Assembly (NCBI GenBank): GCA_036523395.1
Contig: DATDEH010000062.1
Coordinates: 1-38,231 of the forward strand
Length of the DNA: 38,231 nt
Source of the DNA: Candidatus Limnocylindria bacterium
Lineage (GTDB): Bacteria > Chloroflexota > Limnocylindria > P2-11E
Direction: 5' to 3'
The translations under genes were made by a program, and so were the position numbers. The number at the start of each line of letters is the position of its first letter. Position 1 is the stretch's first letter. Positions 4,958-32,179 of the stretch are shown here, piece by piece. Under the pieces are notes generated by a model. That model was not told where the DNA came from and ran no database searches. It saw only the letters and a list, made by a program, of their open reading frames with translations.

Positions 4958-7219
4958 CTAGTGCGTTTCGGGCGTCGGCGCCGGCGCAGTCTCGCCGAGA
5001 CGCAGCCAGCGGTAGAGGCGCGCCAGGGGCGCGGGCGCCCACCAGTTGAGGTTCCCGAGCAGCCGCATCGTCGCGGGCACGACGAGCGCGCGGACGAGCG
5101 TCGCATCGACCGCGACCGCGAGCGCCATCCCCAGGCCGATCGCCTTGATGAGGAGGATCTCCGCAAGGCCGAAGGCCGCGAAGACACCCACCATGATCGC
5201 GGCCGCCCCGGTGATGAGCCGGCCGCTGCGCTCGAGACCTTCGGCGACGGAGTGGGTGTTATCGCCGGTCCGCCGGTATTCCTCCTGGATCCGCGAGAGA
5301 AGCAGTACCTCGTAGTCCATCGAAAGCCCGAAGACGATGCAGAACATGATCACCGGCGTCGACGGGTCGATGGAACCGGCCTCGAATCCGAGGATGCGCG
5401 CGCCGTTGCCGTCCTGGAAGATCCATACGAGGGCGCCGAACGATGCGCTGATCGAAAGCAAATTCATCACGACCGCCTTCAGCGGGAGCACGACCGATCC
5501 GAGCAGCACGAAGAGCACGACGATCGTCGCGAGCATCACGAACGCGACCGCCTGCGGCGTGCGGCCGACGATGAAGTCCACGGTGTCGAGATCGATCGCG
5601 GTGAATCCGGTGACCAGGAGCTCACCGCCGGGGGGCGGCGCCTGCGCGCGGATGTCCTTCACGAGCTGGCGCGCCTCGTCGCCGTAGAACGGAAGCGACG
5701 TGACGACGTCGAACAGCACGATGTCCTTGCCGATCGTGCTCTTGAGCCCGTTCTGCAGCAGCGGCGGGAGCTGCGCGCGCGGGATCGAATAGAGCGTCGC
5801 GAAGTCCGGGATGCCGAACGTTCGCGGATCGAATCCGGTGAACGCGCTCTGCACTTTGACGACATGCGCGAGCTTCTCGAGACGCTGGCCGAGATCGACG
5901 AGCTGCGGGACGCGCGTGCGCTCGAGCGGATCACCGCTCGCGTAATGGACGACGACCTGCATGTGGTTCTGCCCCGCGTCGGGGAAGTCGTTCACGAGCC
6001 TGTCGTATGCGGCGCGCGATTCCTCGTGTGTGGGCAAGGTGCGCACGTCACTCGTCGCGAGTCGAAGGTGCAGGAAAGGCGAGCCCGCGAGGAGGATGAC
6101 CGCGACCACCGGCACGAGCACCGCGACCGGTCGCCGCATGACGGCCATCGCGATGGTGTGCCACCAGCCGCGGCCGCTCTGATCGGGTTGGAAGATCGGC
6201 ACCCGCAGGAGATCCACCCGATGCCCGAGAAGTCCGAGGAGCGCCGGGAGGAAGGTGAGCCCGTACAGGACGGCGCTCGCGACGACGACCGCTCCCGACA
6301 GGCCCATCGACGGGAGGAAGGTGCCCTCGTAGAAGAGCATCCCGGACAGCCCGATCGCGACGGTGATCCCCGAGAAGGTCACCGCGCGCCCGGAGGTCGA
6401 CATCGCGATCGCGAGCGAGTCCTCGATGCTGCGGCCGCGCCGCATCTCCTCGCGGAAGCGGCTGGTCACGAACAGCGAATAGTCGATCGCGACGCCGAGG
6501 CCGATGAGCGTGACCACGTTCTGCGCGTAGACCGAGACGTCCGTGATGCGCGAGAGCACGAACATCCCGGCGATGCCGCTCATCACGGCCAGGACGCCGG
6601 TGCCGAGCGGGATGAGGGCTGCGACGACCGTGCCGAAGACGACGAGCAGCAGGATGAGCGCGAGCGGCAACGCGACGACCTCGGCGCGCTGGAGGTCCGT
6701 CAGCAGCACCTCGTTGAAGCCGTGATTGATGGCGAGGATGCCCGTCGCCTGCACCTTGAGCTTGTCGGACTTCACCTTCGCTCGCAGCTCGGCGTAGTAG
6801 TCGCGTGCGACATCGATGGTGTCCTTCGCCGCGACGTCGACCGTGATCGCCTTGCCGTCCTTCGAGAACCCGCGAGTCGCATCGGTGCTGTTCGCGTCGT
6901 ACGGGGTGATGATCGTGTCGACGCGCGGGTCGGTCCGCAGCGACGCGATCGCCGCCTCGACCGCCGCCCGGAACGCCGGGTCCTTCGCGTCGAGCGTGTC
7001 GCTCGAGAAGATCAGCGTGAACGTCGAACCGCCGACGCGCGGGAGCTCCTGCTCGATGAGCTTCGACGCGCGACCGGACTCCGCGGTCTCGATGAATCCG
7101 CCGGAGACGAGCTTCCCGCCCTGCGAGGCGAGGAAGCCGGACGCGACGAGCAGTGCTACGGATAGGGCGAGTACGGGCCAGCGATGGCGGTAAACAAGGC
7201 GGCCCCAGGCGGCGAACAA
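4958..7219 (-). CDS. MMPL family RND-type transporter
   Basis: 753 residues, two homologous halves each with one membrane helix, a large extracytoplasmic loop and a five- or six-helix bundle, as in MmpL/HpnN transporters. The paired signature motifs are GLGVAIDYSLFVTSRF in the first half and FGLSMDYEVLLLSRIQEEY in the second; the Asp-Tyr pairs line the proton path. MMPL proteins export lipids or hydrophobic compounds using the proton gradient. The start is TTG at 7219, since no ATG or GTG precedes the first helix (WPVLALSVALLVASGFL). A TTGACC stands about 30 bases upstream between tRNA-Pro and this gene, but I see no convincing -10. It leads the run of minus-strand genes down to DUF58. Substrate cannot be inferred. 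Confidence 0.93.
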   Translation of the reverse strand: MFAAWGRLVYRHRWPVLALSVALLVASGFLASQGGKLVSGGFIETAESGRASKLIEQELPRVGGSTFTLIFSSDTLDAKDPAFRAAVEAAIASLRTDPRVDTIITPYDANSTDATRGFSKDGKAITVDVAAKDTIDVARDYYAELRAKVKSDKLKVQATGILAINHGFNEVLLTDLQRAEVVALPLALILLLVVFGTVVAALIPLGTGVLAVMSGIAGMFVLSRITDVSVYAQNVVTLIGLGVAIDYSLFVTSRFREEMRRGRSIEDSLAIAMSTSGRAVTFSGITVAIGLSGMLFYEGTFLPSMGLSGAVVVASAVLYGLTFLPALLGLLGHRVDLLRVPIFQPDQSGRGWWHTIAMAVMRRPVAVLVPVVAVILLAGSPFLHLRLATSDVRTLPTHEESRAAYDRLVNDFPDAGQNHMQVVVHYASGDPLERTRVPQLVDLGQRLEKLAHVVKVQSAFTGFDPRTFGIPDFATLYSIPRAQLPPLLQNGLKSTIGKDIVLFDVVTSLPFYGDEARQLVKDIRAQAPPPGGELLVTGFTAIDLDTVDFIVGRTPQAVAFVMLATIVVLFVLLGSVVLPLKAVVMNLLSISASFGALVWIFQDGNGARILGFEAGSIDPSTPVIMFCIVFGLSMDYEVLLLSRIQEEYRRTGDNTHSVAEGLERSGRLITGAAAIMVGVFAAFGLAEILLIKAIGLGMALAVAVDATLVRALVVPATMRLLGNLNWWAPAPLARLYRWLRLGETAPAPTPETH

Positions 7220-24947: not shown

Positions 24948-25631
24948 ATTTCCGTCGTCGTTCCCACGTACAACGAAGTCGGTTCGCTGCGCCACCTCGT
25001 GCCGCGCCTCGCGGCGGCGCTCGCGGTGCACACGTGGGAGCTGATCGTCGTCGACGACGGCTCGCCCGACGGCACCGCCGATCTCGCCGAGTCATACGCC
25101 GCCGTCCATCCCGTACAGGTGATCCGCAGGCCGGGCAAGGCCGGCCTCGCGTCCGCTGTCCTCGCGGGATTCGCGCAGGCGCGCGGCGACATCCTCCTCG
25201 TCATGGACGCCGATCTCTCGCATCCGCCTGAGGCCGTCCCGCGACTCGCGGCAGCGATCGAGGAGGGCGCGGACCTCGCGGTGGGAAGCCGCTACGTAAA
25301 GGGCGGTGGCACCGAGGACTGGCCGCTGAAGCGGCGCGTCGTGTCGCGCGCGGCCTGTCTCATGGGGAATCTGCTCGTGCCGATCCGCGACTGCACATCC
25401 GGCTTCTTCGCGATCCGCAAGTCGGCGCTCGACGGCGTGAAGCTCAACCCGATCGGATTCAAGATCGGCTTCGAGGTCATGGCGCGCGCGCACTACAAGA
25501 AGGCCGTCGAGGTCCCGTATGTGTTCCGCGACCGCGAGCTCGGCAAATCAAAGTTCGGCCGCCGCGAGATCCTGCAGTACCTCGTGCAGCTGGGCCAGGT
25601 CGCGCGTGATCGAGTGCTCCACAGAACTTGA
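24948..25631 (+). CDS. GT2 glycosyltransferase, dolichol-phosphate mannose synthase-like
   Basis: 227 residues if it begins at 24948. The GT-A fold is complete: ISVVVPTYNEVGSL at the very N-terminus, ELIVVDDGSPDGTADLAE, the metal-binding MDADLSHPPEAVPRLAAAIE, GSRYVKGG, and DCTSGFFAIRKSALDGV. These match polyprenyl-phosphate mannosyl (or glucosyl) synthases, which charge lipid carriers on the inner membrane face; the C-terminal membrane anchor of some relatives is absent. The first ATG/GTG/TTG is GTG at 24999, which would delete the first beta strand and nucleotide-binding PTYNE. An in-frame TAG sits 18 bases before 24948, so initiation must use ATT (24948), ACG (24942) or the truncating GTG. 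Confidence 0.88.
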   Translation: MSVVVPTYNEVGSLRHLVPRLAAALAVHTWELIVVDDGSPDGTADLAESYAAVHPVQVIRRPGKAGLASAVLAGFAQARGDILLVMDADLSHPPEAVPRLAAAIEEGADLAVGSRYVKGGGTEDWPLKRRVVSRAACLMGNLLVPIRDCTSGFFAIRKSALDGVKLNPIGFKIGFEVMARAHYKKAVEVPYVFRDRELGKSKFGRREILQYLVQLGQVARDRVLHRT

Positions 25632-25702: not shown

Positions 25703-25854
25703 ATGGAGGAGAGGGACATACGGCTCGGCGCCCCGTGATGACGGCACGCTCATCGATGTACTTGATCGCGTGCTCGACAAAGGCATCGTCATCGACGCGT
25801 TACCTCCTGTACGCGGACAAGCTGGATCTGAGATACCTACCATCTCGCGGGTGA
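25703..25854 (+). pseudogene. gvpA: Broken gas vesicle structural protein gene (gvpA remnant)
   Basis: Three pieces in three frames together spell a GvpA. Piece 1, from ATG 25703 with GGAGG-like sequence around it, reads MEERDIRLGAP and stops at TGA 25736. Piece 2 (from 25737) reads DDGTLIDVLDRVLDKGIVID plus Ala, which fits the GvpA signature L-x-[DE]-x-[LIVM]-[DE]-x-[LIVM]2-[DKR]2-G-x-[LIVM]2 at every position. Piece 3 (from about 25795) reads RYLLYADKLDLRYLPSRG and stop at 25852, like the GvpA C-terminal helix. The conserved middle (WVRVSLVGIEL...ASVD, some 24 residues) is missing. So the gene has two frame changes and an internal deletion. GvpA forms the gas vesicle wall; no other gvp genes are in the window. 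Confidence 0.65.
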
Positions 25855-27059
25855 GGGAGCCGGCTCCGACGGCCACGTCTCAGCTCGTCTTCGTTTCTCT
25901 CATCGGCTTCCGGCCAGAAGGGACGCGAGTCCTCCGCGACCGCACCCAGACGACCGCGAACGGCACGAGGCTCATGGTCCTCGCCGCCGCAGCCGCACGG
26001 GATCGCACGGATGTCGTGATCGAGTGGGAGCGCACGGGCGATCCCGCGACTTGTCCTCCCGACTCGCAGCTTCTCTGGCACACCAACAGCCAGCCACTGG
26101 AGCACGGACTCACCGTTGACCTCCTGGTCGGCACCGGCCGAGTCAGTGCGATCCGGATGGCTCGTCGGGCGTACCACTCGAGCCACCCTTCCATCGGGGC
26201 GATCGACGCGGTCAGCTTTGGGTCGCTGCCGGCCGGGACCAGCGCCGCCGAGCTGCTTGTGACCGAGGGCGAACGCGAGTGGCGCGCGCAGCTCGCTGTC
26301 GTGCCACGCGACGCGAACGCCTCCGCGCTCACGGCGGAGCTCAACCGCGACGGAATCGCCGTTCGCGCGACCGCTGTCGCGAAGGACCGGGACAAAGTCG
26401 TCGTCGAGCTCGAGGTCGTGGCGCCGCATCAGATCCGGCAGGTCGGTGCGCCGCTGACCGCACCAGTGCGCTTCGCAAGCACGAGTGACGAGGATCAGCG
26501 GGCCCGCAGAGCCAAGATTCGTCGTGTCCTCGGCCAGCACTCTCGACCGATCACGCTAGAGGACGATCGAGGCGGCCGGACCGACGAGGGCCGCCGTCTC
26601 TTTTCACAGGAGCCACAGCAACGCGCGCCGGGCACCCCGTACGTCAGTCGATTCGTTGTCGCGTTCGACGCGCCAGGCACCGCTGCGAAATCCGCAACGA
26701 TCGTGGTCCCGTTCATCGACCTCAACGACCGCGAGCCTTCCGCCAGGGCGGATCTGCGCGATGTGCCACTTGATGTGAAGCTCGGCGAACACCAATTCCG
26801 AGTCATCAGCGCCGAGCCGATCGGGACGGATCAGCGACACGTCGTCCTCACCATCGCGCCGTCCCAGTCACGGCCTCGGTTCACGCAGCCAGCCCGGATG
26901 CACGGCACCGACGACAAGAACTTCGCCTGGAATCCCGACTCGACTCCGGGCGACAGTGTTTCGCTCACGACGAAGGTCGGCGATCCGCCGATCGTCACCT
27001 TCACCGGCGCAGTGCTGCGTATCGACGGACCGCTGCGCCTGGAGATTCCTCTCCGCTAG
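25851..27059 (+). CDS. Hypothetical three-domain beta-rich protein
   Basis: 402 residues from GTG at 25851, which overlaps the gvpA remnant stop as GTGA. Not confidently recognised. Three similar beta-sandwich-like units follow one another, about 20-150, 155-300 and 305-402, each with a strand pattern such as GTRLMVLAAAAARDRTDVVI, IAVRATAVAKDRDKVVVELE and HQFRVISAEPIGTDQRHVVL. The pattern resembles the DUF4179/DUF5643 domains of extracytoplasmic anti-sigma-like proteins, but here there is no signal peptide or membrane segment, which may have been lost from the N-terminus. Its TAG stop and that of the convergent aminotransferase share the palindrome CTAG. Could be a fragment of a once longer gene. 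Confidence 0.6.
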   Translation: MREPAPTATSQLVFVSLIGFRPEGTRVLRDRTQTTANGTRLMVLAAAAARDRTDVVIEWERTGDPATCPPDSQLLWHTNSQPLEHGLTVDLLVGTGRVSAIRMARRAYHSSHPSIGAIDAVSFGSLPAGTSAAELLVTEGEREWRAQLAVVPRDANASALTAELNRDGIAVRATAVAKDRDKVVVELEVVAPHQIRQVGAPLTAPVRFASTSDEDQRARRAKIRRVLGQHSRPITLEDDRGGRTDEGRRLFSQEPQQRAPGTPYVSRFVVAFDAPGTAAKSATIVVPFIDLNDREPSARADLRDVPLDVKLGEHQFRVISAEPIGTDQRHVVLTIAPSQSRPRFTQPARMHGTDDKNFAWNPDSTPGDSVSLTTKVGDPPIVTFTGAVLRIDGPLRLEIPLR

Positions 27060-28216
27060 CGGGGCCCGAGCTCGTCGCGCAACGCGTCGATCACGTAGGT
27101 CTGCTCCTCGTCGGTCATCGCCGCGTAGAGCGGGATGAGCATCGTCGTGCGCGTCGCCTCCTCAGTCACGGGCAGGCTCACCTTGCCGTATCGCGACGTG
27201 TAGGTCTTCTCCAGGTGCGAGGCCATGACGCCGCGACGCGTGGCGATCCCGCGGCGCAGGAGGTTGGTCATGAGCTCCTCGCGATCAAGCCGGCACTCCT
27301 TCGTGAGGCGCAGGCAGTACGACTGGTAGGTGTGATCCGCGTACGGAGGCACGAATGGGACCTCGATACCGCGGATGTCGGATAGCTCCTCGTTGTATCG
27401 CTTGGCGCGCGCGCGACGGACACGGAGCAGCTCGTCGAGCCGGCGCAGCTGCACGAGACCGATTGATGCCTGGATGTCGGTCATCCGGTAGTTGAACCCG
27501 AGCTCGTTGTACTCCTCGATGATCACGCGATCCGAGCTGTGGCGCTCGAGGTCGGACACGCTCATGCCGTGCGCGCGCAGCTTGCGGGCGCGTCCGGCGA
27601 GCGCGTCGTCGTCGGTCGTGATCATCCCGCCCTCGCCGGTGGTGATCACCTTGCGCGGGTGGAAAGAGAAGACGGTCTGATGAGCGTTCGCTCCGACGCG
27701 GCGTCCCTTGTACGACTCGCCGATCGCGGGCGCGGCGTCCTCGACGACGTCGATACCGTGCCGCTTCGCGATGTCATTGACCGCGTCGATATCACAGCCG
27801 AGGCCGATCTGGTCGATCGGCATGATCGCCTTCGTCCGCTTGGTGATCCGCTTCTCGATGTCCTTGGGATCGACGTTGAACGTGCGCGGATCGACTTCGC
27901 AGAACACGACGTCGGCGCCGGTGTAGAGCACCGCGTTCGCGGAGGCGATGAAGGTGAACGACGGCACGATGACCTCGTCACCGCGGCCGATACCGATGCT
28001 CGCGAGCGCGAGATGCAGTCCGGTGGTGCACGACGTGGTCGCGATGCCGTGCTTTGCTCCAACATAGGCGGCCACGGCCTTCTCGAACTCGGCGACCTTC
28101 GGGCCCTGCGTCACCCAGCCGCTCTTGATCGACTCGTATGGAGCGCGGGCCTCTTCTTCGGTCAACGCGGGCTTGGTGATCGGGATGTTCATCTTCCGCT
28201 GCGTCTCGGTAGCCAT
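27056..28216 (-). CDS. DegT/DnrJ/EryC1 sugar aminotransferase
   Basis: 386 residues from ATG at 28216, with GAGGAGG six bases upstream. PLP-dependent type I fold: TTSCTTGLHLAL binds the phosphate, DVVEDAAPAIGESY contains the ring-stacking Asp, and SFHPRKVITTGEGG carries the catalytic Lys. These enzymes aminate keto-sugar nucleotides for surface glycans. The protein is preceded by the epimerase gene in the same direction with a 14-base gap, so the two probably act on the same sugar nucleotide. It is clearly different from the second DegT protein at 30346-31479. Exact sugar not predictable. Confidence 0.93.
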   Translation of the reverse strand: MATETQRKMNIPITKPALTEEEARAPYESIKSGWVTQGPKVAEFEKAVAAYVGAKHGIATTSCTTGLHLALASIGIGRGDEVIVPSFTFIASANAVLYTGADVVFCEVDPRTFNVDPKDIEKRITKRTKAIMPIDQIGLGCDIDAVNDIAKRHGIDVVEDAAPAIGESYKGRRVGANAHQTVFSFHPRKVITTGEGGMITTDDDALAGRARKLRAHGMSVSDLERHSSDRVIIEEYNELGFNYRMTDIQASIGLVQLRRLDELLRVRRARAKRYNEELSDIRGIEVPFVPPYADHTYQSYCLRLTKECRLDREELMTNLLRRGIATRRGVMASHLEKTYTSRYGKVSLPVTEEATRTTMLIPLYAAMTDEEQTYVIDALRDELGPR

Positions 28217-28230
28217 GTGCCCCTCCTCAG

Positions 28231-29202
28231 TTAGCGGGTCGAACGTGTGAGCGCCGCGCGCCGCCACGCGATCAGCTGTCGCACTCCGTCGGCGAGACTG
28301 GTCGCGGTACGGAATCCGAGCAGCTCCTCGGCGCGGCGCGGATCGCCGTAGCGGCGAGCCGGCAGCTGTCCCGCGGGTTGCGCTTTGAACTCCATCCCCA
28401 CCGAGCTCCCCGTCAGATCGAGCAACAGCGTCGCCAGCTCGCGCATCCGAGTTTCGACGCCGCTACAGACGTTCACGATAGCGTCCTTTTGCTTCACATC
28501 AGAGGCCAGAATGTTGGCTTTGACCACGTCATCGACATAAACGAAGTCAACTGATGCGGAACCGTCACCAAAGAGCGTGAGCGGCTGTCCCTGGTCGATG
28601 AGATCGAGCCAGCGGACCATGACCTCAACATATTTAGAACGGATATCCATACGCGGCCCAAACACGTTGAAGTAACGGAGCGTTGTTGTCGGCACATCGC
28701 GGAGATGCGCGAAGGCGCGCCCGAGCTGCTCGTTCGCGACTTTCGCCGCGCCGTAGACGGTCCTGCCGTTCAGCGGATGGTCCTCGTCGATCGGCAGTCG
28801 CATCGGCTCCCCGTACACGACCGCGCTGGACGCGAGGACCACGCGCGAGACCTTGGCATCGGCCGCTGCCTCGAGGACGTTGAACGTCCCGTCGACCATG
28901 ACCTCCTGGCACTCGCGCGGCTGCTCCTGGCACCGAGTCCAGCGGAGCGCGGCCTGATGGAAGACAACGTCGGTCCCCGCGATATTCGCGCGGGTCGCCT
29001 CGCGATCGCGGATATCGACCTCCACCAAACGTGCGCGCCCCGTGGCGAGCGCTGCGGTGAGGTTCTCCGGGACGCCGCGCACCAGCGCGTCGAGCGCGAT
29101 GACCTCGCGCGCACCGGCGGCGAGCGCCGCGTCCACAATGTGCGATCCGACGTTCCCGGCGCCGCCGGTAACGGCGACCCGCGCGCCCGACAGCGATCCC
29201 AT
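28231..29202 (-). CDS. NAD-dependent sugar epimerase/dehydratase
   Basis: 323 residues from ATG at 29202; a TTG three codons earlier is possible. Extended SDR: the dinucleotide site is VTGGAGNVGSHIVDAAL, the catalytic Ser is in LASSAVVYGEPMRLP and the Tyr-Lys pair in TVYGAAKVANEQLGR; RYFNVFGPRMD and VDFVYVDDVVKANI are typical of UDP-sugar 4-epimerases and 4,6-dehydratases. It probably makes the substrate for the downstream aminotransferase. No Shine-Dalgarno sequence is evident; TAGGCT (29216-29211 on the minus strand) is eight bases before the ATG. Confidence 0.92.
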   Translation of the reverse strand: MGSLSGARVAVTGGAGNVGSHIVDAALAAGAREVIALDALVRGVPENLTAALATGRARLVEVDIRDREATRANIAGTDVVFHQAALRWTRCQEQPRECQEVMVDGTFNVLEAAADAKVSRVVLASSAVVYGEPMRLPIDEDHPLNGRTVYGAAKVANEQLGRAFAHLRDVPTTTLRYFNVFGPRMDIRSKYVEVMVRWLDLIDQGQPLTLFGDGSASVDFVYVDDVVKANILASDVKQKDAIVNVCSGVETRMRELATLLLDLTGSSVGMEFKAQPAGQLPARRYGDPRRAEELLGFRTATSLADGVRQLIAWRRAALTRSTR

Positions 29203-29216
29203 CCCACGCAAGCCTA

Positions 29217-29333
29217 GCGGGCGGCACGCCGCTGGCAGGCGCGGGCTACCCCGCGGGGGCCATCATTTAGCCAGAGCTTAAGTGTCGCCCTGACGATCAG
29301 GCAAATACAGAAGAAGAGGAGGCTTAAGAACAA
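29217..29333 (+). other. Intergenic region between epimerase and flp
   Basis: About 115 bases, more AT-rich than the neighbourhood. It contains a small hairpin CCTGA-CGA-TCAGG around 29289-29301, two copies of GCTTAAG, and AGGAGG near 29318-29323, which is about 11 bases before the flp GTG and is its likely ribosome binding site. No clear promoter hexamers. Confidence 0.4.
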
Positions 29334-29492
29334 GTGAGTCTTCGGCAGTTCGTTCGTGACGAGGAAGGCCAGGGTCTGGTCGAATATGCACTCATCATCG
29401 CGGTCATCGCGATCGCGGTCATCATCGCGATGGTCTTCCTCCGCGGTCAGATCGAGAACATCTTCAGCAACATAGGCAACAACCTCACGTGA
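29334..29492 (+). CDS. Flp/Fap-type pilin
   Basis: 52 residues from GTG at 29334, too short for usual gene-length cut-offs. The N-terminus MSLRQFVRDEEG is followed by QGLVEYALIIAVIAIAVIIA, the class III prepilin signature with Gly before the cleavage site and Glu at +5 or +6, and a short polar tail FLRGQIENIFSNIGNNLT. Flp pilins are processed by a TadV-type peptidase and assembled by the Tad machinery into adhesive pili; none of the tad genes is in this window. It lies alone between sugar genes. Codon use fits the rest of the window. Confidence 0.88.
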   Translation: MSLRQFVRDEEGQGLVEYALIIAVIAIAVIIAMVFLRGQIENIFSNIGNNLT

Positions 29493-29576
29493 TCGCCGCC
29501 GCGGCGGGCGCTCGCGAGGGCGTCCGTCGCGGCCGGTATCGTAAGCGGCACCACCGGCGCGTCCGAGGAGTGCCCT

Positions 29577-30365
29577 ATGTCGTCTGAATCCATCGAGCGC
29601 ATCAAGGAAACGTGGGAAGGCCGCGCCAAGAACACGCGACTGCATGGCACCTACGTGACGATGACCGACCGCAACCAGCGGGGGCTCGAGATCGACGAGG
29701 CCCTCCGCTACATACCCGTCGGGCAGCGCATCCTGGACGTCGGTTGCGGCAACGGCTATTCGAGCGCCATCTTCGCGAAGCAGGCCGAGCACATCGTTGC
29801 GATCGACTTCTCCGAGGCGATGATCGCGCGAGCGACGCGCGAATACGGAAACGTGCCGAACGTCACCTTCGAGGTGCGAGATGTCCTCGCGCCGCTTCCC
29901 TACGCAGCCGCGAGCTTCGGCGTGGCGGTCGCCCAGCGCTGCCTGATCAACCTCGCGTCGTGGGAGAACCAGCAGAGAGCGATCGAGAACATCGCACGCG
30001 TCATCCGGCCCGGTGGGCTGTTCGTGATGCAGGAGGGGTCACGTCAGGGCCGGCTGGCGCTGAACCAGCTGCGCCAGAGCATGGGCCTCCAGGCCATGCC
30101 GGACGTGCCGTTCAACACTGACTTCGATGAAGAGAAGCTGTGGCCCTTTCTCCGCCGTCACTTCGAGATCGTGGACGTCCGCCGGTATGGCCTGTACGAC
30201 GTGATCGCGCGCGTCGTCCACCCGCTGCTCGTGGCGCCTGCGGAGCCGAGCTACGAGGCGAAGATCAACGACATCGCGCGCAAGATCGCCGGCACGAGCG
30301 ACGCCGCCGGCGACGTGTCGCGCTGGTTCACGGCGGTCCTGCGGGTCAGCTCTTCTTCCGCATGA
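29577..30365 (+). CDS. Class I SAM-dependent methyltransferase
   Basis: 262 residues from ATG at 29577, with GAGGAG six bases upstream. The SAM site is ILDVGCGNGYSSAIFAKQ (motif I), IVAIDFSEAMIARA (motif II acidic residue) and VRPGG-like VIRPGGLFVMQEGSRQG. The N-terminal SIERIKETWEGRAKNTRLHG and the C-terminal half resemble small-molecule or sugar methyltransferases. Substrate unknown; location between aminotransferase genes suggests a role in surface-sugar decoration. Its last 20 bases overlap the convergent aminotransferase gene tail to tail. Confidence 0.9.
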   Translation: MSSESIERIKETWEGRAKNTRLHGTYVTMTDRNQRGLEIDEALRYIPVGQRILDVGCGNGYSSAIFAKQAEHIVAIDFSEAMIARATREYGNVPNVTFEVRDVLAPLPYAAASFGVAVAQRCLINLASWENQQRAIENIARVIRPGGLFVMQEGSRQGRLALNQLRQSMGLQAMPDVPFNTDFDEEKLWPFLRRHFEIVDVRRYGLYDVIARVVHPLLVAPAEPSYEAKINDIARKIAGTSDAAGDVSRWFTAVLRVSSSSA

Positions 30366-31479
30366 ACTCCGACACGCTCGCCGTGACGCGGTCGATCTGA
30401 CCGTCGGTCAGCTCGGGGTACATCGGCAGCGACAGGACTTCCCCTGCGATCTTCTCCGTGACCGGCAGATCGCCCTTCCGGTAGCCGAGGAACTGCGCCG
30501 CTTCCTGCATGTGGATCGGCACCGGGTAGTGGATCTGGGTCCCGATACCCTTCTCCGCGAGATACGAGCGCAGTGCGTCGCGCCGACCGCCGGGCACGCG
30601 GATCGCGTAGCAGTAGAAGACGTGCCGGCCACCCGCCGGGATCTCGGGCGTGATTATGTCGAGGCCGGTGAGCAGCTCGTTGTACCGCGCCGCGACGGCC
30701 TGGCGGCGCCCGGTCCATTCGTCGAGGCGCCGCAGCTTCACGCGGAGGATGGCGGCCTGGAGTTCGTCGAGCCGCGCGTTGTATCCAACGATCGGGTGGT
30801 AGTAGCGCATCGACTGACCGTGCTCGCGCAACGCGCGCAGATCGTCGGCGAGCTTGTCGTCGTTCGTCGTGATGCTGCCCGCCTCGCCGTACGCGCCGAG
30901 GTTCTTGCTGCAGTAGAAAGAGAAGCAGTTGACGCGTCCGCCGGCGCCCGCCTTGTTGCCGTCGTCAAGTCGTGCGCCGTGAGCCTGCGCCGCGTCCTCG
31001 ATGATCGTGATGCCACGGTCCTGCGCGAGCTGGCGCAACGGCTTTAGATCGACGGTCCGCCCGTACAGGTGGACTGGGATGATCGCCTTCGTCCGCGGCG
31101 TCATGCGTGACGCGACGGAGCTGATGTCCATGAGCATCGACCGTTCGTCCACATCCACGAGGATCGGGCGGGCGTTCGCGTAGACGATCGCCTCGACCGT
31201 CGCGAAGAACGTGTGCGAGACGGTGATGACCTCGTCACCCGAGGACACGCCGCACGCGCGGATCGCGAGCTGCAACGCGTCTGTGCCAGATCCAACGCCG
31301 ATCGCGTGGCTGGTGCCGCAGAACTCCGCCCATTCTTTGTCGAAAGCGCGGACGTTCGGTCCGATCGTGAGCTGCATGCTCTCGAGTACTTCGTCGATCG
31401 CCTGGCGGACCTCGTCACGGATCGTCGCGTACTGCGCCTTTAGGTCGACGAGTGGGATCTCCTGTGTCATGACGGTCAT
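30346..31479 (-). CDS. DegT/DnrJ/EryC1 aminotransferase, WlbC/WbpE-like
   Basis: 377 residues from ATG at 31479, with GGGAGAG seven bases upstream. It starts IPLVDLKAQYATIRDEV, a beginning characteristic of the WbpE/WlbC and related sugar aminotransferases. The PLP features are GVGSGTDALQLAIRACG, ITIIEDAAQAHGA and FSFYCSKNLGAYGEAG with the Schiff-base Lys. In the WbpB-WbpD-WbpE pathway this enzyme transfers an amino group from glutamate to the 3-keto intermediate of UDP-GlcNAcA. The two genes upstream are the matching oxidoreductase and N-acetyltransferase, which supports this assignment. It is the third gene of that operon. Confidence 0.9.
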   Translation of the reverse strand: MTVMTQEIPLVDLKAQYATIRDEVRQAIDEVLESMQLTIGPNVRAFDKEWAEFCGTSHAIGVGSGTDALQLAIRACGVSSGDEVITVSHTFFATVEAIVYANARPILVDVDERSMLMDISSVASRMTPRTKAIIPVHLYGRTVDLKPLRQLAQDRGITIIEDAAQAHGARLDDGNKAGAGGRVNCFSFYCSKNLGAYGEAGSITTNDDKLADDLRALREHGQSMRYYHPIVGYNARLDELQAAILRVKLRRLDEWTGRRQAVAARYNELLTGLDIITPEIPAGGRHVFYCYAIRVPGGRRDALRSYLAEKGIGTQIHYPVPIHMQEAAQFLGYRKGDLPVTEKIAGEVLSLPMYPELTDGQIDRVTASVSEFMRKKS

Positions 31480-31495
31480 TTTGTCGCTCTCCCTT

Positions 31496-32179
31496 TCACT
31501 TCCGCACACTCTCTTCCAGCCACGCATATGCGTGCGGATAGATGCCGACGAAACACGCGAGGTCGGTGATGTCCTCCTTGAGCTGCACGGCAGGATTGCC
31601 CGCCCATACCGTGCGCGGCGCGATGCGGCGCTCCCGGACGACGCTTCCCGCGCCGATGAGCGCGTCTTCACCGATCTCGACGCCAGGGAGGATCGTGCTG
31701 TTCGCGCCCAGTCGCGCGCGGCTTCGCACGGTCGCGCCTTTCACGCACTGCAGGTAGGCCGGGCACTGTGGGTGCGGGTCGTCGGTGAAGACGACATGCG
31801 GGCCGAGGAATACCTCGTCCTCGATCGTGACGAGCTCGAGAAAGCACCCGGTGTGGATCCGCACGCGCGAGCCAACACGGTTGCCGAACTCCAGCGACGC
31901 GTGCGTGCCGACGGAGACGTCGTCACCGAGCACGTTGTCCTCTCGGATCGACGCGCCCTGACCTGTTTGAAGGCGGGCGCCGATCCTCGTGCCGGCGTAG
32001 ATCGTGGTGAAGGGGCGGATGACCGAGTCAGGGCCGATCACCAGCGGGAGCTCGCCTTCTCTCTTTCCCCGTGGGGCCCGACCCAATACAACGTACTCGC
32101 CGACGATCGTGCCCGATCCGAGCTCGACGTTGGCAGCGATCACGGCCGTCGGGTGCACGACGACGCCGAGCGAGGTCAC
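31496..32179 (-). CDS. Left-handed beta-helix N-acetyltransferase, WlbB/WbpD-like
   Basis: 227 residues from GTG at 32179, overlapping the oxidoreductase stop as GTGA. Hexapeptide repeats run through most of the protein: VVHPTAVIAANVELGSGTIV, SVGTHASLEFGNRVG, ARLGANSTILPGVEIGEDAL and IGAGSVVRERRIAPRTVWAG. A loop VVFTDDPHPQCPAYLQ interrupts the helix where WlbB/WbpD relatives have a similar insertion. The expected reaction is acetyl-CoA-dependent acetylation of the 3-amino group of UDP-GlcNAc3NA, giving UDP-2,3-diacetamido-uronic acid. The C-terminal helix (LACFVGIYPHAYAWLEESV) is unusual in detail. Confidence 0.87.
   Translation of the reverse strand: MTSLGVVVHPTAVIAANVELGSGTIVGEYVVLGRAPRGKREGELPLVIGPDSVIRPFTTIYAGTRIGARLQTGQGASIREDNVLGDDVSVGTHASLEFGNRVGSRVRIHTGCFLELVTIEDEVFLGPHVVFTDDPHPQCPAYLQCVKGATVRSRARLGANSTILPGVEIGEDALIGAGSVVRERRIAPRTVWAGNPAVQLKEDITDLACFVGIYPHAYAWLEESVRK

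Follow-up and report, generated by a model that had tools for sequence, protein, structure and literature searches.

Does the stretch at positions 25703–25854 of a Limnocylindria genome, in which pieces of the gas vesicle shell protein GvpA can be read in three different frames, represent a dead gene and, if so, does it record the loss of gas vesicles in this lineage? The stretch lies in the window (the whole piece of DNA analysed, 38,231 nt), which forms contig C62 of a draft genome (G000; 3.0 Mb in 128 contigs, 95% complete). The first-pass annotation, made from the letters alone, had described a gene of the gvpA family whose remains are spread over three frames, the helices readable and the hairpin core missing, and this description stands. 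The features of the locus are listed below, G012 and G014 being two relatives from the same genus.

24999–25631, plus strand: glycosyltransferase family 2 gene, upstream neighbour and synteny anchor (PF00535, E 3.2e-32)
25703–25735, plus strand: ATG-initiated stretch of 11 codons, a conserved leader ATGGAGGAG and not the old gvpA start (alignment to G012 and G014)
25726/25727, plus strand: junction at which 28 nt present in both orthologs are missing, including the only in-frame start (GTG)
25743–25796, plus strand: remnant of GvpA helix 1, GTLIDVLDRVLDKGIVID (PF00741, 27.5 bits; codon comparison)
25797–25800, plus strand: core-deletion junction, 4 nt versus 78 nt in G014 (count from the sequences)
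25801–25854, plus strand: remnant of GvpA helix 2, YLLYADKLDLRYLPSRG, with the old stop TGA at 25852–25854 (matrix rank 1; shuffles)
25851–27059, plus strand: downstream open reading frame (ORF), 402 codons and a stop, its only Pfam match lying in the fused helix piece
27056–28267, minus strand: DegT/DnrJ/EryC1 aminotransferase gene, downstream neighbour and synteny anchor (PF01041, E 2.4e-123)

Helix 1 is read in frame 3 and is matched by the Gas_vesicle profile PF00741 at 25746–25799 in a profile search of the genome (genome-wide E 1.4e-5); the score of 27.5 bits lies above the curated cut-off of 25 bits, for a match that covers only profile positions 1–18 of 39, so the reported GvpA signature is genuine. 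Within the longer frame of 437 amino acids, the helix match drops to 24.6 bits, slightly below the cut-off. Frame 1 at 25801–25854 reads YLLYADKLDLRYLPSRG and then a stop, and this tail ranks first among the 76,404 six-frame positions of the window (20.9 bits, the next position scoring 14.1) when scanned with a matrix built from 19 intact GvpA tails, 13 of them off-cluster and 6 from gvp clusters. None of 200 dinucleotide shuffles reached this score, the best attaining 19.1 bits, which bears out the earlier claim of a GvpA-like C-terminal helix in another frame; the identification of the tail rests on the matrix scan, the codon comparison and the shuffles, a pairwise alignment with high gap costs having left it unaligned. 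Given these scores, both pieces are more than chance similarities. In frame 2, the ATG at 25703 is followed by TGA after 11 codons. The arrangement helix 1, beta-hairpin, helix 2 in a single reading frame is thus broken, with the hairpin gone and the helices in different frames, and helix 1 is preceded by no in-frame start codon, the first ATG, GTG or TTG of its frame being located at 25770, within the helix itself.

Intact gvpA orthologs, for which a search at the same locus of sister genomes had been proposed, are present between the same neighbours in two of the four genus relatives, G012 and G014. The glycosyltransferase gene is 90% identical in both and is located just upstream of the off-cluster gvpA in each; orthologs of the downstream ORF show 62% identity in G014 and 59% in G012, and the DegT aminotransferase gene is present at the locus in both genomes. 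In G014, the locus is distributed between two contigs, with an overlap in the downstream ORF. The other two relatives, G013 and G015, also encode the glycosyltransferase (79% and 77%, respectively); no gvpA or remnant could be traced after it in either genome, the G013 contig extending for only 1 kb there, and the DegT gene was not found in either at E 1e-60. In G012, about 1.4 kb separates the glycosyltransferase gene from gvpA, and this interval holds, on the opposite strand, a collagen-like reading frame with GPTGPTG repeats (L043, G012:C62, reversed coordinates 5663–7120) that is absent from the window. The downstream ORF is fast-evolving, and the distantly related sequences in G009 and G002 are not adjacent to the off-cluster gvpA of these genomes.

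Comparison with the intact orthologs reveals two lesions. The pairwise alignments to G012 and to G014 place an identical 28-nt gap between window positions 25726 and 25727, and the only in-frame ATG, GTG or TTG ahead of the helix in the two orthologs, a GTG, falls inside the missing segment. The leader ATGGAGGAG is conserved in G012 and G014 and is out of frame with gvpA there; the ATG that had been proposed as the beginning of the broken gene does exist, but it is not the old start. The second lesion, a net loss of 74 nt in the core, takes out the beta-hairpin codons and shifts the frame. A product devoid of both start and hairpin would not yield a shell protein. At the 3′ end, the old gvpA stop overlaps the GTG start codon of the downstream ORF at 25851 (GTGA), and the gvpA stop of G012 likewise overlaps the TTG of the next ORF (TTGA); inspection of the G014 locus detected no such overlap in frame.

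Of the changes in the 18 helix codons, 6 are synonymous and 1 is non-synonymous relative to G014, and 9 and 1, respectively, relative to G012; between G012 and G014 the counts are 6 and 1. Over the 54 nt, the remnant shows 7 differences from G014, 10 from the paralog of G009, 11 from G012 and 13 from the gvpA of its own cluster. Because nearly all helix changes are synonymous, there is no sign of long neutral drift, which points either to a recent loss or to an artefact. The breakage of the gene looks recent from these codon comparisons, in keeping with one half of the original proposal, a recently decayed gvpA; the other half, a gene received by this lineage, fails to the extent that it implies a foreign gvpA newly acquired by this genome alone, given that two sisters have the whole gene at this locus.

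These observations are best explained if the segment is a recently inactivated pseudogene of a redundant off-cluster gvpA paralog, a reading that we put at roughly four in five. The homology to GvpA, the conserved gene neighbourhood, the lesions relative to the orthologs and the intact cluster genes elsewhere in the genome are all directly observed. The common ancestor of G000, G012 and G014 would have carried a GvpA-like gene, probably encoding a shell subunit, between the glycosyltransferase gene and the uncharacterised ORF, with a stop codon overlapping the start of the ORF, an arrangement suggestive of translational coupling. If the lesions are real mutations, the source genome may have lost the start codon in a first deletion and the beta-hairpin codons, with the accompanying frame shift, in another, after which no shell protein could be made from this copy. 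Gas vesicles could have persisted through the gvpA of the gvp cluster on another contig, so that the paralog would have been dispensable. Several facts sit uneasily with this reading. The genome is a metagenome assembly, and two neighbouring genes of G012, one of which encodes a conserved enzyme, are affected by gaps of about 100 nt. The tail is strongly dissimilar to those of G012 and G014 after its first 6 codons, and the codon after IleAsp encodes Ala in the window, as in the cluster gvpA, versus Gly in the orthologs. Furthermore, the GvpA tree did not place the remnant, whose gap drew it to a position next to the outgroup.

The principal alternative is that an intact gvpA paralog exists at this position in the living genome and that the assembler lost the missing stretches. 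The draft comprises 128 contigs, the G014 contig ends directly after the off-cluster gvpA, and the helix carries no excess of amino-acid changes, all of which fit this scenario. The sharp-edged gaps of about 100 nt by which the downstream ORF and the DegT gene of G012 are interrupted (L043, G012:C62, at about 7600 and 8770 in reversed coordinates) are either real or assembly faults, and faults of this kind may therefore occur in the region. However, the scenario requires two separate losses within about 75 nt, and the tail, too, is divergent. Moreover, 8 of the 10 neighbouring ORFs of the window align to G012 or G014 as a single piece spanning the greater part of each ORF (the exceptions are 29214–29792, which is poorly conserved, and 30346–31671, which extends beyond the compared stretch), so the window is not generally faulty. 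An assembly artefact hence appears unlikely, although, in view of the G012 gaps, it deserves to be retained at perhaps one chance in seven. A live new gene, with the helix either joined in frame to the ORF that follows it or made as a short peptide, is far less probable still. The helix and the ORF do share one open frame of 457 codons, and the helix changes are almost entirely synonymous, but the two occupy separate frames in the orthologs, an in-frame agreement is expected by chance in one case out of three, and the first possible start codon of the frame (25770) lies within the helix, so that fusion to the downstream ORF is ruled out for want of a start ahead of the helix. Chance resemblance to GvpA, which the match to just 18 of the 39 profile positions might suggest, has next to no credibility in the face of the genome-wide E-value of 1.4e-5 and the independent tail match, and is refuted by synteny, that is, by the undamaged GvpA gene that two sister species carry at this locus.

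The suggestion that the lineage once had gas vesicles and has since lost them does not survive examination of the rest of the genome. Three further matches to the gas vesicle family were identified in the source genome by the profile search, all on contig C6, which carries a gvp cluster consisting of gvpA (G000:C6, L005:7072–7353) and gvpJ, both full PF00741 matches, gvpK and three gvpF/L (GvpL/GvpF) genes, all of them open reading frames. Neither gvpG nor gvpO was among the genes identified there. The third GvpA-family copy on C6, which also scored in the genome profile search, we take to be S/M-like. Immediately after the cluster gvpA come two genes with histidine kinase domains, one of them also containing a receiver domain (L005:7335–10545). 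Across the family, 22 of the 28 genomes, the source genome included, contain a gas vesicle family match. Because the cluster on C6 retains its own gvpA, gas vesicles need not have disappeared with the spare copy, and the broken gvpA is accordingly no evidence of gas vesicle loss. A recent foreign origin of the segment and lineage-wide loss of gas vesicles are both ruled out by the cluster in the same genome together with the sister loci.

Beyond this single locus, the analysis brings to light an off-cluster gvpA paralog in soil-associated Chloroflexi that is under purifying selection in the sister genus, g2. All 15 relatives in the genus of the source genome (g1) and in g2 have a gas vesicle family match on a contig other than that of the cluster. 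This match is a full GvpA-like gene in 13 of them (all 11 genomes of g2, plus G012 and G014 in g1) and a different, more divergent sequence in G013 and G015. The 13 paralogs (L048–L058, L043 and L044) contain IDGW or IEGW where the cluster copies have IDAW, and lack the EAR of the latter. Among the off-cluster paralogs of g2, the median pN is 0.108 and the median pS 0.568 (55 pairs; pN/pS ~0.19), compared with 0.018 and 0.496 for the cluster gvpA (55 pairs; pN/pS ~0.04). These ratios indicate that the paralogs are constrained, less so than the cluster gene. The intact G014 paralog gives matches to GvpA shell proteins of solved structure (8gbs, E 5.5e-18; 7r1c, E 1.5e-16). It is conceivable, if doubtful, that the paralogs with IDGW or IEGW and without EAR constitute a branch of GvpA specialised in building or modifying a protein shell apart from the classical gvp cluster, of which the window lineage would just have lost one member. 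A title-level literature search, which is no proof of absence, retrieved no title on off-cluster gvpA in soil Chloroflexi.

Compared with the GvpA/GvpB shell proteins (PF00741; PDB 8gbs and 7r1c), the window copy has in common the helix 1 signature and the helix 2 tail but lacks the start and the beta-hairpin, whereas the profile is covered in full by the intact orthologs, which also match the shell proteins of solved structure. In the GvpA cryo-EM structure, the beta-hairpin forms the rib core and helix 1 bridges adjacent ribs (PMC9994262). The off-cluster paralogs of g2 reside at a different locus (in G009, genes for an oxidoreductase, a response regulator and an MFS protein lie close by), and in the tree they group weakly (support 0.78) with the paralogs of G012 and G014. 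The gvpA of the genome's own cluster belongs to the same family as the remnant, its helix differing at 13 of 54 nt; unlike the off-cluster paralogs, it contains both IDAW and EAR, and it is intact amid gvpJ, gvpK and gvpF/L genes.
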